From: Candidatus Gottesmanbacteria bacterium RIFCSPHIGHO2_01_FULL_40_15
Lineage (GTDB): Bacteria; Patescibacteriota; Microgenomatia; 2-02-FULL-39-11
Reading direction: 5' to 3'
DNA: 44,933 bases
Assembly (NCBI GenBank): GCA_001779115.1
Contig: MFJF01000007.1
Span: 1 to 44,933, forward strand
Positions 16,517-24,708 of the stretch are shown here, one piece after another (within the stretch, counting starts at the first letter, position 1; every line of letters begins with the position of its first letter). Both the position numbers and the translations under genes were made by a program. The notes under the pieces are model-generated. The model worked only from the letters and a program-made list of their open reading frames with translations, was not told where the DNA came from and made no database searches.

Positions 16517-17053
16517 ATGAATCATAAAATTAGCCTTATTATTCTTTTTCTTATTGCTTTCTTTTTATTTTTTCAACTTGATTACCAGGTGGCGCGAGCC
16601 CAAACTACTCCAACTCCTATTGATTATCATTTGCCTTTCCCCGGTATATTGCCCGATCATCCTTTATATCCCATGAAAAGGATTAGGGATTGGCTTTTGC
16701 TTTTCTTTAATAGGAATCCGATAAAAAAGACCGAGTATCATCTTCTGTTCGCTGATAAAAAACTGGTTATGGCTCAACTTCTGTTGGATAAGCGTAAAAC
16801 AGATTTATCGGTAAATACTCTAATTGAAAGTCAAACAGAACTTCTTAAATCTGTTTCTGTCTTTAATACTCTTGCATCTTCTTCAAATCCGCCTGAAAAT
16901 TTTTCTGATAAAATTGAATTAGCGATAAAAAAACATTCTGATTTGATCAATAAAATTGATTTTTCAATAACCGATTTAAATCAGAAAAAAATAATCCGGC
17001 AGGCACTTGGGATAAACCAGCAGGCACTTAATCAAATTTCGTCATTGAAGTAA
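16517..17053 (+). CDS. DUF5667-like secreted/membrane protein
   Basis: Signal peptide/TM; LPFPGILPDHPLYPMKRIRDWLLLFF motif. Confidence 0.7.
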   Translation: MNHKISLIILFLIAFFLFFQLDYQVARAQTTPTPIDYHLPFPGILPDHPLYPMKRIRDWLLLFFNRNPIKKTEYHLLFADKKLVMAQLLLDKRKTDLSVNTLIESQTELLKSVSVFNTLASSSNPPENFSDKIELAIKKHSDLINKIDFSITDLNQKKIIRQALGINQQALNQISSLK

Positions 17054-17195: not shown

Positions 17196-17238
17196 TTGAC
17201 AGAGGTTATTTAGTGTCCTACGATTTGCAAGGACACTA
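17196..17238 (+). promoter_or_regulatory. Promoter (-35 TTGACA, -10 TACGAT) with inverted repeat around the -10
   Basis: TTGACA 17196-17201, 17-nt spacer, TACGAT 17219-17224; TAGTGTCC (17211-17218) and GGACACTA (17231-17238) are exact inverse complements. Confidence 0.65.
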
Positions 17239-17273
17239 TAGCTGGGGTAGTTAAGAATGTGACACCGATTAAT

Positions 17274-17720
17274 ATGAGGTGCCCTTTTTGTGACCATCAG
17301 GATACTGAAGTAGTTGAAACCAGAGACAGTGAAGATTTGACTACAATCAGGAGAAGGCGCGAATGCACAAAGTGCAATAAGCGTTTTACTACTTATGAAA
17401 GGGTTGAAAGAGTTCCGTTAATAGTAATTAAAAAAGACGGACGGAAAGATCAGTTCGATAGGGATAAATTAAAAAGAGGTATTTTGAAATCTTGTGAAAA
17501 GACAATTGTCGGTATTGATGATATTGACACGATTGTGGACGATGTGGAAAAAGAATTACGCGGTATGGATACCGTCGAAGTGGAAAGCAAGAAAATAGGT
17601 CAGCTGGTGGCTCAGAAGCTTAAAAAAATCGATAAAATTGCCTATATACGCTTTGCGTCAGTATTCAGAAGATTTGTCGATGTTGAAGATTTTGAAAAAG
17701 AGCTTCAGAAATTACTTTGA
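17274..17720 (+). CDS. nrdR: Transcriptional repressor NrdR
   Basis: MRCPFCDHQDTEVVETRDSEDLTTIRRRRECTKCNKRFTTYERVE zinc ribbon and ATP-cone. Confidence 0.95.
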   Translation: MRCPFCDHQDTEVVETRDSEDLTTIRRRRECTKCNKRFTTYERVERVPLIVIKKDGRKDQFDRDKLKRGILKSCEKTIVGIDDIDTIVDDVEKELRGMDTVEVESKKIGQLVAQKLKKIDKIAYIRFASVFRRFVDVEDFEKELQKLL

Positions 17721-17759
17721 ATATATTATAAACATTTTATAAAGAAAGGCTTTTTATAC

Positions 17760-20099
17760 ATGAAGTTAACCGGCATCCGCCAGCAGGTATTTCTGGATCG
17801 ATATTCTTTGAAAAATGAAAAAGGTCAGTCTGTTGAAAAAACACCAGAGAAGATGTGGCGGCGTGTTTCCAAGGCGGTTTCTTTGATTGAGAAAAAAAAG
17901 GAAAGTCTTTACTGGGAAAAAAAGTATTACTCTGCAATGGAGGATTTTAAATTTGTTCCTGGCGGCAGAATTCTTTCAGGTGCCGGTACCGGTTATAAAG
18001 TTACTTTTTATAATTGTTTTGTTATTCCTTCTCCCCAAGATTCGCGTGACGGTATATTGGAAACATTAAAGCAGATGGTGGAAATTATGGCCCGCGGTGG
18101 AGGAGTAGGTATAAATTTATCGTCTCTCCGCCCCCGGGGTGCCCGTGTCAGAAAAGTAAACGGGTTTTCTTCAGGGCCTTGCAATTGGGCTGAACTTTTT
18201 TCAGTTGCCACGAAAGATATCATCCAGCAGGGCGGCTCAAGGAGGGGAGCTTTAATGCTTATGTTATGGGACTGGCATCCTGATATTGAAGAATTTATTA
18301 CTGTCAAAAGGGATCTGACCAGAATAAACGGAGCCAATCTTTCAGTTTGCGTTTCGGATAAATTTATGGAAGCGGTTAAAAAAGATGCCGATTGGCAGCT
18401 TGTTTTTCCTGATATCAAAGACAAGGAATATGACCGGAAGTGGGAGGGTTATCTGGATGATTGGGTAAAACTGGGTAAAAAAGTAAAAATTCATAAAACG
18501 ATAAAAGCCCGTTATCTTTGGGATCTTATAAGCGAAGCAGCCTGGGGCTCCGCGGAACCCGGTGTTGTCTTTATGGAAAGGTATAATAAATGGAATAACA
18601 ATTGGTATTTCAACAAAATTAATTGTGTTAATCCGTGCGGAGAAGAAGGATTACCCTCTTATGGTGTCTGTAATCTTTGTTCAATAAATTTGGCCGCTCT
18701 GATCCGAGGAGGAAAAATAGACTATAAAGAACTGGCGGATATTGCTAAAACCGGTGTTCATTTTCAGGATAATGTTATTGATGCTGACTCATATGTCTTT
18801 CCCCAAATAGAAAAGGTGCAAAGATTAGGCGAACGGAGGATCGGTTTGGGTACTATGGGTTTGGGTGACGCATTGATAAAAATGAAAATCCGTTACGGAT
18901 CACCGGAAAGTCTTAAAGTAATTGATAAAATCTATAAAACAATCAGAGATGCCGCTTATGAAGCTTCAGCCGATATAGCGAAAGAAAAAGGTGCTTTTCC
19001 CAAGTTCGACGCTTCTAAATATCTGAAAGGATATTTTGTAAGTAAACTGCCCCAGGGTATCAAAGCAAAAATTCAAAAATACGGTATCAGAAATTCGGTT
19101 CTCCTGCAGCAGGCTCCCACCGGTTCAACTTCTCTTCTGGCCGGAGTTTCTTCAGGCATAGAACCTGTATATGAGTTTTCCTTTATAAGAAGGGACCGGC
19201 TTGGTGAACACAGGCTTTATCATCCGCTTTTTGAAACTTGGAAAAAGGAGAATCCGGGTAAACCCGTCCCTGATTATTTTGTTTCTGCCAATGATCTTTC
19301 ACCTGAAGATCATGTTCGGGTTCAGGCGGGTATTCAAAAATACGTCGATGCCTCAATATCAAAAACTGTTAACGCGCCCAATACGCATACGGTTGATGAT
19401 GTAAAGAAACTGTATAAACTGGCTTACGAGCTGGGTTGCAAAGGTATAACTTATATGCGGGAAGGCAGCCGTCCCGGTGTTTTGGAAAGAGTTGTTCCGA
19501 AAAAACAGGATGAAAAAGTTAAAAAAGCGGATTTGATCGGCAGTAATGGTCAGGAAAAACCTGAAATCACTCCCAGACCAATGATAGTCAAAGGTGCGAC
19601 ATATCAGATTGACACTCCGGTTGGTACTGCTTTTGTTACGATTAATACCGATGAGGGAAACCAGCCTCTTGAGTTGTTTATCAATGTCGGAAAAGCAGGC
19701 TCCGATGTCACTGCCATGGCTGAGGCCGTAGGTCGGCTTGCTTCTCTGGTGTTGCGCATGCAATCGCCGGTACCGGCTCAGGAACGCTCTTATCAAATTT
19801 TCAACCAGCTGATAGGAATTGGTGGCAGTAAGTCATTGGGTTTTGGGGATAAAAAAGTCCGTTCACTTCCCGATGCGGTTGCTAAAATTCTCGCTATGCA
19901 TTTCGGATATAATGTCAAAAACGGCAATGGGATTTCAAGTAAAGAAAAACTGCTTGATAAACCCATGGCTGTTTTAACTCAGGAAGTCTTGCCGGTTGAA
20001 AATTCGGAATATGATCTTTGTCCTTCATGCGGAGTAGCTGCTCTAGCTTTTGAGGAAGGTTGTAAGAAATGCTACAGTTGCGGTTACTCGGAATGTTGA
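17760..20099 (+). CDS. nrdJ: Adenosylcobalamin-dependent (class II) ribonucleoside-diphosphate reductase
   Basis: FVPGGRILSGAG, NPCGEEGLPSYGVCNLCSINLAAL, QQAPTGSTS, KGITYMREGSRPGVLE, C-terminal CPSCG...CYSCGYSEC. Confidence 0.92.
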   Translation: MKLTGIRQQVFLDRYSLKNEKGQSVEKTPEKMWRRVSKAVSLIEKKKESLYWEKKYYSAMEDFKFVPGGRILSGAGTGYKVTFYNCFVIPSPQDSRDGILETLKQMVEIMARGGGVGINLSSLRPRGARVRKVNGFSSGPCNWAELFSVATKDIIQQGGSRRGALMLMLWDWHPDIEEFITVKRDLTRINGANLSVCVSDKFMEAVKKDADWQLVFPDIKDKEYDRKWEGYLDDWVKLGKKVKIHKTIKARYLWDLISEAAWGSAEPGVVFMERYNKWNNNWYFNKINCVNPCGEEGLPSYGVCNLCSINLAALIRGGKIDYKELADIAKTGVHFQDNVIDADSYVFPQIEKVQRLGERRIGLGTMGLGDALIKMKIRYGSPESLKVIDKIYKTIRDAAYEASADIAKEKGAFPKFDASKYLKGYFVSKLPQGIKAKIQKYGIRNSVLLQQAPTGSTSLLAGVSSGIEPVYEFSFIRRDRLGEHRLYHPLFETWKKENPGKPVPDYFVSANDLSPEDHVRVQAGIQKYVDASISKTVNAPNTHTVDDVKKLYKLAYELGCKGITYMREGSRPGVLERVVPKKQDEKVKKADLIGSNGQEKPEITPRPMIVKGATYQIDTPVGTAFVTINTDEGNQPLELFINVGKAGSDVTAMAEAVGRLASLVLRMQSPVPAQERSYQIFNQLIGIGGSKSLGFGDKKVRSLPDAVAKILAMHFGYNVKNGNGISSKEKLLDKPMAVLTQEVLPVENSEYDLCPSCGVAALAFEEGCKKCYSCGYSEC

Positions 20100-20126
20100 G
20101 GAAAAAATCTCACTTCGGGAAATTAG

Positions 20127-20678
20127 TTGATGAAAGTCAAAATTTATACCAAAACCGGCGATCAGGGGTTTACTTCAACATACAAAGGTATACGCATTTT
20201 AAAATCAGACCCGCAGGTTGCGGCTTATGGTTCAATTGATGAGTTGAACTCAATACTTGGAGTCCTCATTAATTATCTCAATAACGAAAAAAAAATTAAA
20301 AACTTCATTGTTCAAGTTCAGTCAGACTTATTTGCCATCGGAGCTTTTCTGGCCGGAAATAAAATTTCACTTAAATATCTGAAAACCCGTGTAACTCTTA
20401 TGGAAAAGTTGATTGATGAACTGGAAAGCCGCCTTCCCTTACTTAAAAATTTTATTCTCCCTGGTGGAAAGTTGAGCTCCGCTTGGGCAAATTTTTCAAG
20501 AGCTGTTTGCCGCCGGGCAGAAAGGAAAGTAGTCAGGTTAAAAACCGCCGGTTTTGATATGGATGGCCGGATTCTCATATATCTCAACAGGCTGTCCGAT
20601 TTATTATTTATTATAGGCAGATATTCAAACTTCCGTCTCCGTATTCCTGAAATAATTTGGAAAAAGAAAGATCTGTGA
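20127..20678 (+). CDS. Cob(I)yrinic acid a,c-diamide adenosyltransferase (PduO type)
   Basis: KIYTKTGDQGFTSTYKGIRILKSDPQVAAYGSIDELNSILG...LPGGKLSSAWANFSRAVCRRAERKV. Confidence 0.9.
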   Translation: MMKVKIYTKTGDQGFTSTYKGIRILKSDPQVAAYGSIDELNSILGVLINYLNNEKKIKNFIVQVQSDLFAIGAFLAGNKISLKYLKTRVTLMEKLIDELESRLPLLKNFILPGGKLSSAWANFSRAVCRRAERKVVRLKTAGFDMDGRILIYLNRLSDLLFIIGRYSNFRLRIPEIIWKKKDL

Positions 20679-20766
20679 TTTAAAAAATTAAATCAATCCT
20701 GCTTTCCTCTTGTTATTAAAGGTAATTTTTGACAAAATAAGATTGTTATAAATTTAGTTTATTTCT

Positions 20767-21237
20767 ATGAAAAAATATCATCCGAAAAGAAAAATTAATT
20801 ATCTGCTGATTTCGCTTTTTATTATTATAGTTTTAGTTTTGCTGGCACAAAAAACCGTGTTAAAAACCGGTATTAATATTCCGCCAAGGAATGACAATAT
20901 CCGTTCAAACGAACAACCGGAAATTAATCCACAAGATAACAAAGTACTGCAAAATAAAATAACCATTGATTACGGCGGCGGTAGGAAAAAAAGTTTTCAG
21001 GTTGCAGCCGCTAACGCTTATGAAGCTTTAGCCATTGCGGCTGAAAAAGACGGTATCAAATTGGAAAGCAAAGAGTATAAATACGGTCTTATAGTGGAGT
21101 CGGTAAACGGGGTAAAAAATACCAATGATAAATATTGGATTTTTTCTGTTAACGGTAAACCGGGACAAATATCGGCAGATCGGACTGTAATAAGTCCCGG
21201 AGATGCGGTTATTTGGGAATACGTTCGGTCAAAATAA
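20767..21237 (+). CDS. Membrane-anchored DUF4430 (transcobalamin-like beta-grasp) protein
   Basis: N-terminal TM; AYEALAIAAEKDGIKLES...KYWIFSVNGKPGQISADRTVISPGDAVIWEY. Confidence 0.75.
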   Translation: MKKYHPKRKINYLLISLFIIIVLVLLAQKTVLKTGINIPPRNDNIRSNEQPEINPQDNKVLQNKITIDYGGGRKKSFQVAAANAYEALAIAAEKDGIKLESKEYKYGLIVESVNGVKNTNDKYWIFSVNGKPGQISADRTVISPGDAVIWEYVRSK

Positions 21238-21240
21238 GTA

Positions 21241-21800
21241 TGAAATTAAAAGTTGCTTTAATTCTTATACTGTTAGGTTTTCTATTCCGGACCGTTTTTC
21301 ATTTGGGGGAAAATATTGAATTTGTCACCTCCGCCGCGCTCCTGTCGGGGAGCTTCCTCGGTCCTTTTTGGGCTGTCACCGTTCCCCTGGTAATAATGGC
21401 CGTATCCGATTTTTTTATCGGTAACACCATGATTTATCTTTTTACTTGGAGTGCCTATTTAATTATAGGATTGATGGGTTTTCTGCTTTTACGGAAAAAA
21501 AAAGGAAAAATTTCCCACATTATAAAAGCCGGTTTTACCGGTATTGTTTCATCCTTGATCTTTTTCCTCTGGACAAATTTCGGAGTTTGGTTTTTGGACA
21601 GTTTCGGAATGTATGAAAAAAGTTTTAACGGATTATTGTCGGCATATATTTATGGTTTGCCATTTTTAAAATCAAATCTTGCCGGTAATCTTTTTTTTGT
21701 TCCTCTTTCGTTTGCCGTTTTTCACTTCATCCCCGAATTATATCTCGCTTATTCGGACTTATTATCAAAAAAGTTTTCTCTGGGAAAAACCCGAAAATAG
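21241..21800 (+). CDS. Multi-TM protein, DUF6580/ECF substrate-binding subunit-like
   Basis: Several TM helices; SGSFLGPFWAVTVPLVIMAVSDFFIGN...FLWTNFGVWFLD...LLSAYIYGLPFLKSNLAGNLFFVP. Start taken as ATG 21241 after the upstream stop. Confidence 0.65.
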
Positions 21801-21818
21801 AAAATTGAGATAAATTTT

Positions 21819-22259
21819 ATGCCTGCCGATTCAGATTCTTCTCAAATGAAACCGGTTTCTCCTTCTCCCGTGACTCCGGTATCTGCTGTCACCGGTCCGG
21901 GAAAGGAATCCGAATCAGTGACTGTAAAAAAAGACGGAATTCTCGAAGCGGTCGGCAGTGATATTGAAATTGAAAAAGAAGTTGAAAATGCCGGAGTCGA
22001 AAAATTATCGGGAAGTTATGAGTTGCCTCCCGATGTCAAAAAACTCGGGGTTTCCGTAAGTAATGCTCAAAGTCCTGTTTTTACCGCAGCTCAAGTTTCT
22101 TTACCGATCACCGATGATAAAATATTGGAGGGATTAAAAGCCCCGCTTTCTTCTGCTTTTAAATGGTTGGCTGTCTGGTGCATAAAAAAACTTCAAAAAG
22201 CACACCTTGTCCTCAAAAGCATACATGGTAAAATCATTCGGGTAAAAGTCAGAGATTAA
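21819..22259 (+). CDS. Conserved-looking hypothetical protein
   Basis: Intact 146-codon ORF in an operon-like position; low-complexity N-terminus. Confidence 0.5.
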   Translation: MPADSDSSQMKPVSPSPVTPVSAVTGPGKESESVTVKKDGILEAVGSDIEIEKEVENAGVEKLSGSYELPPDVKKLGVSVSNAQSPVFTAAQVSLPITDDKILEGLKAPLSSAFKWLAVWCIKKLQKAHLVLKSIHGKIIRVKVRD

Positions 22260-22362: not shown

Positions 22363-24708
22363 ATGGATGAAAGTACCGCTGTTATAGTTAACCAGTTAAG
22401 TGATTTTGGAATAACTTTATTAATCCTGGTCTTATTACTGTCAGGAATTTCATTATTTCTGTATTTCCTGTTTTTATGGTGGAAATATAGAAATCGGGAA
22501 AAACAAAGTCTGGAGTTTATTCTGCTTCAGGTGTCGGTACCCAAAGAAAATGAAATAAAAATCGACGCTGCCGAGCAATTTTTTACTTCGCTGTCTTCAC
22601 TCTCTCATGGAGGTTTTTTATCTTTTTTAAAGCCACAGGACCATATCGCTTTTGAAATTGTCGGTCGTTCCGGCGATATCCGTTTTTATGTTTCGGTCCA
22701 TCATCATCTCCGGGATTTGGTTGAAAAACAAATTTACGGTATGTATCCGGCAGCGGAAATAAAAGAAGTTGATGAATACAATATATATAATGAAAAATCA
22801 AAAATAGCTTTTGCATCCCTGGTATTAAAAGATTCCGATTATTTACCTATTAAAACCTATCGGGATTTGCCGGTTGATCCTCTCTCCGCCATTACCTCAA
22901 CTGTCGGCAAAATGCAGACGGGTGAAGGGGTAGCCATACAAATTTTGGTAACTCCGGCAGATGGAAAATGGAAACAAGCCGGTAAAAACCATTTATCGAA
23001 TATCAAAAAAAACGAAGCCAACCCCGATAAAGCTCAATATAATATCGATGCTAAATCTTTGGAAACAATCGAAAATAAAGTCGCCAAACCGGGATTTAAT
23101 ACCGCCATAAGGATTGTTGTTTCTTCAGATAGTCGGGAATCGGCTAAAATGCATCTTAATAATATCCAATCGGTTTTTGCCCAATTTTCATCCGATAAAA
23201 ATCATTTCGGAACTACAAAAATGCTGTTGAAGAGTTCTTTTATGTTTGATTTTATTTACCGTTATTTCCCCGTTTCCAATTGGCCTTATAAACAATCCAG
23301 TGTTTTATCCAGTGAAGAGTTAGCCACAATTTTCCACTTCCCCAATAAAAGCGTGGAAACTCCTCATATTAACTGGGTGACTTCAAAAAAATCTCCCGCG
23401 CCCTCTGATATTCCCACTTCAGGACTCTATCTTGGTAAAAGTACTTATCGGGGAATTTCCCGCCCAATTTATATGCAGCTTGACGACAGACGCCGCCATG
23501 CGTATATCATCGGAAAAACAGGTGTCGGTAAATCAGTTCTTTTAAAAGAAATGATTCTTCAGGATATTAAATCCGGTCAGGGTGTTGCTGCTATTGATCC
23601 TCATGGTGATCTGATCGAAGGTATACTTCCCTTAATACCTCCCGAACGCGCCGAAGATGTCATTTATTTTGACCCTTCTGACGGTGAGCGGCCGATGGGG
23701 TTAAATATGTTGGAAGCCTATACGGAAGAACAGAAACACTTTATTGTCACCTCAATTATCGGTCTGATGTATAAGCTTTATGATCCTCAAAAAACCGGAA
23801 TAATCGGACCCCGTTTTGAACATGCCATAAGAAATGCCATGTTGACCGTCATGGTTCAGCCCGGAGCCTCCTTTGTTGAAGTGGTCAGGGTTCTGACTGA
23901 CTCCACCTTTGTCCAGGAGCTTTTGCCCAAAGTTACCGATCCGATAGTCCGCCGCTATTGGACTGATCAGATTGCCCAGACCTCCGATTTTCATAAATCC
24001 GAAGTTCTCGATTATATTGTTTCCAAATTCGGCCGGTTCGTTACCAATAAATTGATGAGGAATATTATCGGCCAAAGTAAAAGTGCTTTTGATTTTAGAA
24101 AAGTCATGGATGAAGGAAAAATTCTTCTGGTTAATCTGGCCAAAGGGAAATTAGGCGAAGAAAACTCGTCATTTCTGGGTTTGATTTTAGTTCCGAAAAT
24201 CCTTGTAGCTGCCATGAGCCGGGTTGACACGCAGGAAGACCAGCGACGGGATTTTTACCTTTATGTTGATGAATTTCAGAATTTTGCCACCCCCGATTTC
24301 GCCCAAATTTTATCTGAAGCGCGTAAATTCCGCCTTAATCTCTGTGTCGCCAATCAGTTTATCGGGCAGATGGAGGAAGAAGTTAAAAATGCCGTTTTTG
24401 GTAATGTCGGAACTATTATTTCATTCAGAGTCGGTGTTACTGACGCAAATTATCTTCAGCATTGGTATACTCCGACATTTTCGGAAAATGATCTGATTAA
24501 TGTCGATGTCTATAATGCATATATTAATACTATTATTGATAATAAGCCGGCGCCTCCGTTTTCCGTTGACATGAGAAAAGATTTGTCTCAATTAAAAAAA
24601 ATGGAAAATAAGGAAGTTGCCAAAGCTATTGTTCAATTGTCCCGCCTTAAGTACGGCCGGCCCCGTGAACTGGTTGAAACCGAAATTTCCCAAAGAGCCA
24701 GACTCTGA
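22363..24708 (+). CDS. VirD4/TraG/DUF87-like type IV secretion ATPase with N-terminal TM
   Basis: IIGKTGVGKSVLLKEMILQDI Walker A; AIDPHGDL; FYLYVDEFQNFATPDFAQILSEARKFRLNLCVANQF. Confidence 0.88.
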   Translation: MDESTAVIVNQLSDFGITLLILVLLLSGISLFLYFLFLWWKYRNREKQSLEFILLQVSVPKENEIKIDAAEQFFTSLSSLSHGGFLSFLKPQDHIAFEIVGRSGDIRFYVSVHHHLRDLVEKQIYGMYPAAEIKEVDEYNIYNEKSKIAFASLVLKDSDYLPIKTYRDLPVDPLSAITSTVGKMQTGEGVAIQILVTPADGKWKQAGKNHLSNIKKNEANPDKAQYNIDAKSLETIENKVAKPGFNTAIRIVVSSDSRESAKMHLNNIQSVFAQFSSDKNHFGTTKMLLKSSFMFDFIYRYFPVSNWPYKQSSVLSSEELATIFHFPNKSVETPHINWVTSKKSPAPSDIPTSGLYLGKSTYRGISRPIYMQLDDRRRHAYIIGKTGVGKSVLLKEMILQDIKSGQGVAAIDPHGDLIEGILPLIPPERAEDVIYFDPSDGERPMGLNMLEAYTEEQKHFIVTSIIGLMYKLYDPQKTGIIGPRFEHAIRNAMLTVMVQPGASFVEVVRVLTDSTFVQELLPKVTDPIVRRYWTDQIAQTSDFHKSEVLDYIVSKFGRFVTNKLMRNIIGQSKSAFDFRKVMDEGKILLVNLAKGKLGEENSSFLGLILVPKILVAAMSRVDTQEDQRRDFYLYVDEFQNFATPDFAQILSEARKFRLNLCVANQFIGQMEEEVKNAVFGNVGTIISFRVGVTDANYLQHWYTPTFSENDLINVDVYNAYINTIIDNKPAPPFSVDMRKDLSQLKKMENKEVAKAIVQLSRLKYGRPRELVETEISQRARL

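Follow-up and report, generated by a model that had tools for sequence, protein, structure and literature searches.

How a genome-reduced bacterium that depends on vitamin B12 (cobalamin) for deoxynucleotide synthesis obtains the vitamin is the question raised by a gene cluster of Candidatus Gottesmanbacteria bacterium RIFCSPHIGHO2_01_FULL_40_15, a Patescibacterium of the Microgenomates group. The cluster is located in contig C7 (MFJF01000007.1) of an assembly of 32 contigs and 1.33 Mb, and the analysed stretch of 44,933 nucleotides (nt) is referred to as the window. It encodes the ribonucleotide reductase (RNR) repressor NrdR, the class II adenosylcobalamin-dependent RNR NrdJ, a PduO-type cob(I)alamin adenosyltransferase, and two proteins with the domains DUF4430 and DUF6580. 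The locus is very probably an operon for both the use and the uptake of B12 in an organism auxotrophic for it, in which the DUF4430/DUF6580 pair is the candidate uptake system.

All five genes are on the plus strand and were identified in profile searches with matches far above chance, the first three judged by NCBIfam equivalog cut-offs and the last two by Pfam cut-offs: nrdR (17259-17720; TIGR00244, 194.6 bits, cut-off 124.65), nrdJ (17760-20099, 779 amino acids (aa); TIGR02504, 566.5 bits, cut-off 399.95; also PF02867 and PF00317), pduO (20127-20678; TIGR00636, 164 bits, cut-off 108.45; also PF01923), the DUF4430 gene (20767-21237; PF14478, 40.4 bits, cut-off 23.8), and the DUF6580 gene for a predicted corrinoid S-component (21240-21800; PF20221, 109.8 bits, cut-off 27). 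NrdJ has a TSCPD domain and a C-terminal tail rich in Cys. A 146-aa open reading frame (ORF) without a match in Pfam or PHROGs follows on the same strand (21819-22259), and the intergenic gaps from nrdR to this ORF are, in order, 39, 27, 88, 2 and 18 nt. The five consecutive genes named by the original prediction, which had been made from the DNA sequence alone, were accordingly all found, each above its profile cut-off. The overlap of the DUF6580 ORF with the end of DUF4430 that it had also described was discarded, as it arises only if translation is taken to begin at a TTG further upstream (21213); the ATG at 21240, situated 2 nt past the DUF4430 stop, is the more natural and probably the actual start and gives no overlap, the two genes being tightly coupled in any case.

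NrdJ was the sole B12 user found in the window's genome, where no other B12-binding domain and no class III RNR were detected. In a comparison set of 110 related genomes the NrdJ profile was matched in 98 genomes and CobS in none by profile search, the positive controls being matched in 10 of 14; the lack of a CobS match in the window's genome agrees with the earlier suggestion that the organism is unable to make B12. A BtuC-type permease was rejected as the uptake route, since no FecCD permease was matched in the window's genome (weak matches occurred elsewhere).

By sequence, DUF6580 is homologous to CbrT, an S-component for B12. When the DUF6580 profile (31 members) was searched against the whole PDB at E≤10, one sequence matched, 6fnp_A (E-value 1.2e-5, covering positions 6-90 of 181). 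The entry 6FNP is ECF-CbrT, an energy-coupling factor (ECF) transporter, and its S-component CbrT has been demonstrated to transport cobalamin and cobinamide (PMC5997447). Alignment to two CbrT-type plasmid proteins with hhalign gave 75% (E-value 2.5e-5, 146 columns), whereas the control comparison of profiles with riboflavin-type S-components of the same group of genomes gave 0.2%. The plasmid proteins match PF12822 and PF07155 and the window protein PF20221, and the two are thus homologous by sequence but belong to separate Pfam families. The AlphaFold model of DUF6580 (predicted local distance difference test, pLDDT, 94.4) shows a small membrane protein of six helices in the S-component fold, and all of its confident Foldseek matches were S-components (probability 1.00), the top TM-score (0.65/0.67) being to BtuM with cyanocobalamin. 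Both the CbrT homology and the fold of the model bear out the ECF-S-like character first ascribed to the protein. BtuM binds cobalt via a cysteine, whereas the DUF6580 protein of the window contains no cysteine. Conserved positions of DUF6580 include R17, H21, N25, N113 and W117, of which H21 is nearly invariant and might, speculatively, be a cobalt ligand.

The DUF4430 protein consists of an N-terminal membrane helix (residues 12-31), a flexible linker and a beta-grasp domain (model pLDDT 88). Its profile (29 members) matched 3u7z (9e-5), transcobalamin-2 (3e-4) and transcobalamin-1 (6e-4) in PDB, and all 19 fold matches of the model at E≤0.001 were to 3u7z or to intrinsic factor, transcobalamin or haptocorrin, so that the originally proposed likeness to the C-terminal beta-grasp domain of these carriers was recovered by profile and by fold. 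One of the matches, 5np4, shows the beta domain of human transcobalamin on its own with cyanocobalamin bound, and such a domain can therefore hold B12 by itself. Unlike transcobalamin, the window's protein is membrane-anchored and has no toroid counterpart in the genome; some relatives do have a toroid protein, either separate or fused, and with it both parts of the transcobalamin plan. By sequence these toroids match squalene cyclases, and their profile gave no match to the transcobalamin alpha domain. Bacterial transcobalamin-like proteins were predicted to scavenge B12 by Burroughs et al. 2007 (PMC1796856), including SLBB-domain proteins whose transcobalamin-like domains lie outside the cell in bacteria that lack B12 synthesis, as here, but those are linked to CbiO/CbiQ, whereas DUF4430 is linked to the DUF6580 S-component, mostly without CbiQ.

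DUF6580 was clearly present in 31 of the 110 genomes, all of which also had DUF4430, and the two genes were adjacent (within 3 kb) in every case; in one further genome, G058, DUF4430 is found next to PduO and NrdJ but DUF6580 is missing. Because NrdJ is so widespread in the set, its presence alone is uninformative, and the information is carried by linkage and its rearrangements. The pair was located at most 10 kb from nrdJ, PduO or BtuR in 22 of the 31 genomes, representing seven GTDB families, with PduO either before or after the pair, and in G032 and G099 PduO is replaced between nrdJ and DUF4430 by an unrelated BtuR/CobA-type adenosyltransferase. Co-occurrence of the pair with class II RNR in relatives, one of the points on which the original prediction had staked itself beforehand, is thus seen as linkage across these families.

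The same association was met in other genomic contexts. A plasmid of the lactobacillus L. plantarum has the annotated order nrdJ-pduO-DUF4430-S-component (CbrT type), identical to that of the window, and an L. intestinalis plasmid nrdJ-DUF4430-S-component-pduO. The published lactobacillus cluster is nrdJ-cbrS-cbrT-pduO (PMC5997447), where by our reading of the matching positions cbrS would be the DUF4430 protein; the ECF-CbrT cluster of Lactobacillales accordingly brings together class II RNR, PduO, DUF4430 and an S-component as in the window. Of 80 DUF6580 loci collected from GTDB, 54 were Patescibacterial or unlabelled, with DUF4430 in 43 of these, NrdJ, PduO or BtuR in 36, and a toroid protein of the prenyltransferase/squalene-cyclase kind near DUF6580 in 11, to which L122, labelled Actinomycetes, is added. 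In Omnitrophota the order BtuR-DUF6580-TonB receptor is recurrent, and Ignavibacterial loci have a lipoprotein and a TonB receptor ahead of DUF6580 and the B12-dependent MetH after it; in total, a TonB receptor was present at 22 DUF6580 loci. The Ignavibacterial arrangement resembles BtuG/BtuB of Bacteroides (PMC6143338), in which a surface binder feeds a transporter, but BtuG/BtuB is an outer-membrane system, and the likeness of the lipoprotein to BtuG is limited to a DUF5074 match below cut-off. On a deltaproteobacterial contig (L184:1170-3041, not counted among the 22), an RCC1-repeat protein stands directly before DUF6580, where others have the TonB receptor or lipoprotein. No other vitamin pathway was recurrent among the identified DUF6580 neighbours, which leaves the corrinoid assignment without the competing association that the original prediction had also considered.

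Several observations weigh against this assignment. The Foldseek E-values for DUF6580 are weak (best 0.03), and riboflavin and folate S-components outrank BtuM by this measure; a weak NCBIfam folate S-component match was also obtained (E-value 7e-4, below cut-off). The window's genome offers no toroid partner for its DUF4430 protein. In nine of the 31 genomes the assembly does not place the pair close to nrdJ, three of these pairs (G004, G008, G028) being at or near contig ends. Finally, most NrdJ-bearing relatives are without the pair, and must therefore obtain B12 otherwise; no alternative B12 transporter was obvious next to nrdJ in 20 pair-less neighbourhoods. Many Patescibacteria (L188-L207) have NrdJ and an adenosyltransferase without the pair, CobS or a strong BtuC match, and among these a CobB/CobQ-like glutamine amidotransferase (L207) and a DUF71-family protein (L188) were seen near nrdJ.

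Taken together, the membrane-anchored DUF4430 protein would bind extracellular cobalamin via its transcobalamin-like beta-grasp domain and pass it to DUF6580, which would move the corrinoid across the membrane, whereafter it would be adenosylated by PduO and used by NrdJ, the operon being probably controlled by NrdR. From homology and gene context we infer the B12 binding, the hand-over between the two proteins and the energetics, and the corrinoid-scavenging interpretation of the original prediction is supported with corrections that concern the 146-aa protein and the ECF module.

As to the module, EcfT (CbiQ family) was found in seven of the 31 pair-bearing genomes; these seven all belong to the window's family, and the 17 pair-bearing genomes of other families yielded no EcfT, although a divergent EcfT could have escaped the search; the S-component of those 17 genomes is therefore probably ECF-free. 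A solitary BtuM expressed in E. coli was reported to support B12 uptake without an ECF module (PMC6072759), and DUF6580 probably acts likewise as a solitary S-component in most relatives, or with another partner. The lactobacillus ECF-CbrT in contrast depends on its module, and such a module appears to be missing from most pair-bearing Patescibacteria. A more far-reaching reading, about as likely as not, is an ECF-independent Patescibacterial importer in which DUF4430, in some lineages with a toroid, captures cobalamin at the surface and feeds a solitary DUF6580; on this reading DUF6580 would also carry B12 across the inner membrane in several phyla generally, receiving it from TonB receptors where there are two membranes and from transcobalamin-like proteins where there is one.

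Less likely, though the strongest competitor, is that DUF6580 is a B12 S-component energised by an ECF module that also serves a riboflavin S-component, the arrangement known from group II ECF transporters. The search for ECF A/A'/T subunits proposed at the outset did find one EcfT and ATPase in the window's genome, on contig C2 (G000, L104:8962-11230, minus strand), and CbrT, which uses a module in common with other S-components, failed to function alone in E. coli (PMC5997447). The C2 genes nevertheless form an operon of their own with an S-component, one ATPase, a short EcfT and riboflavin kinase, similar operons occur in L066-L069, and EcfT was not found in most pair genomes, so that the expected module exists but is of riboflavin type. 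It probably serves this organism for riboflavin uptake, and its CbiQ was for the same reason dismissed as a cobalt transporter. Solitary function of the DUF6580 family is probably to be favoured, and the window's species may use the riboflavin module.

It is improbable that the pair imports a cobinamide-like corrinoid precursor, another vitamin or a metal complex in place of complete cobalamin. Cobinamide is also a substrate of CbrT (PMC5997447), three loci have DUF6580 next to DUF71, a family predicted to take part in B12 (corrinoid) salvage (PMC3541065), and the folate S-component match points the same way. CobS, required for the completion of cobinamide to cobalamin, is however absent from the matches in all 110 genomes, DUF6580 has no profile match to riboflavin-type S-components, and its recurrent neighbours MetH, NrdJ, BtuR and PduO all use or handle B12. 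Similarly low probability is given to DUF4430 being a surface or structural domain and no B12 carrier, with DUF6580 alone handling B12: 3u7z, the top structural match, is annotated as a putative metal binder, and DUF6580 occurs without DUF4430 beside TonB receptors in other phyla, but the invariable adjacency to DUF6580, the toroids (fold of the other half of transcobalamin) at 11 loci and the cyanocobalamin bound in 5np4 argue for a carrier. That the pair neighbours the RNR genes by chance or shared locus ancestry, as would any gene inserted into a backbone conserved in pair-less genomes, is hardly credible in view of the linkage in seven families with differing gene orders, the equivalent lactobacillus cluster, the other B12 genes adjoining DUF6580 in Omnitrophota and Ignavibacteria, and the CbrT homology.

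For the genome-reduced Patescibacteria, in which NrdJ is common and CobS was not matched, the pair provides a concrete and testable candidate for B12 uptake, a likely function in several phyla for DUF6580 and this branch of DUF4430, both previously of unknown function, and a bacterial counterpart of the transcobalamin/intrinsic-factor system. The literature search, confined to open-access papers (subscription journals lying outside it), returned none that names DUF6580 and six that mention DUF4430, in no case in the title or abstract. The B12 assignment of DUF6580 and its likely ECF independence, resting on homology and gene context, appear new, as does the combination of DUF4430 with a toroid, whereas the nrdJ-DUF4430-S-component cluster was already known from lactobacilli.

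The backbone of the locus was recognised in the 20 pair-less nrdJ neighbourhoods, in several of which the order DUF5667, nrdR, nrdJ, pduO, 146-aa family and VirD4 was kept. Because the 146-aa family and a VirD4-like gene trail nrdJ and pduO in genomes without the pair too, the 146-aa protein is part of this backbone and not specific to the pair, and its original inclusion in the B12 set was ruled out. Synteny of the VirD4/TraG-like ATPase (22363-24708 in the window), immediately preceded by the 146-aa protein, extends to many relatives. DUF5667 (16517-17053) precedes nrdR in the window and in many relatives, and in G076 (L091:7983-8912) it is fused to DUF4430 and adjoins DUF6580, a fusion hinting that DUF5667 may be functionally connected to the pair.

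Upstream of nrdR, a promoter-like site TTGACA-17-TACGAT (17196-17224, plus strand) is crossed by an inverted repeat, TAGTGTCC...GGACACTA, the whole element covering 17196-17250; its -35 hexamer lies at 17196, the left border set by the original prediction. The site is a consensus match only, such matches in the region being no more numerous than in shuffles; several genomes of the window's family show this layout of site and repeat ahead of nrdR as well, and the repeat is a candidate NrdR operator. No cobalamin riboswitch was returned by Rfam at gathering thresholds.

In most of the window's family, a protein of 700-880 aa, absent from the window, is inserted between pduO and DUF4430 (L071:920-3061, L073:4658-7168, L075:9577-12063, L076:7618-10041, L077:6285-8585, L082:6553-9186), and the two that were scanned had no significant Pfam match. 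Moreover, several relatives (L076:3477-6908; G009, G010, G033, G036, G053, G054, G091, G100, G103) have NrdJ frames of 1100-1600 aa in which the profile match is split near 280-282, and these long frames possibly contain inteins.

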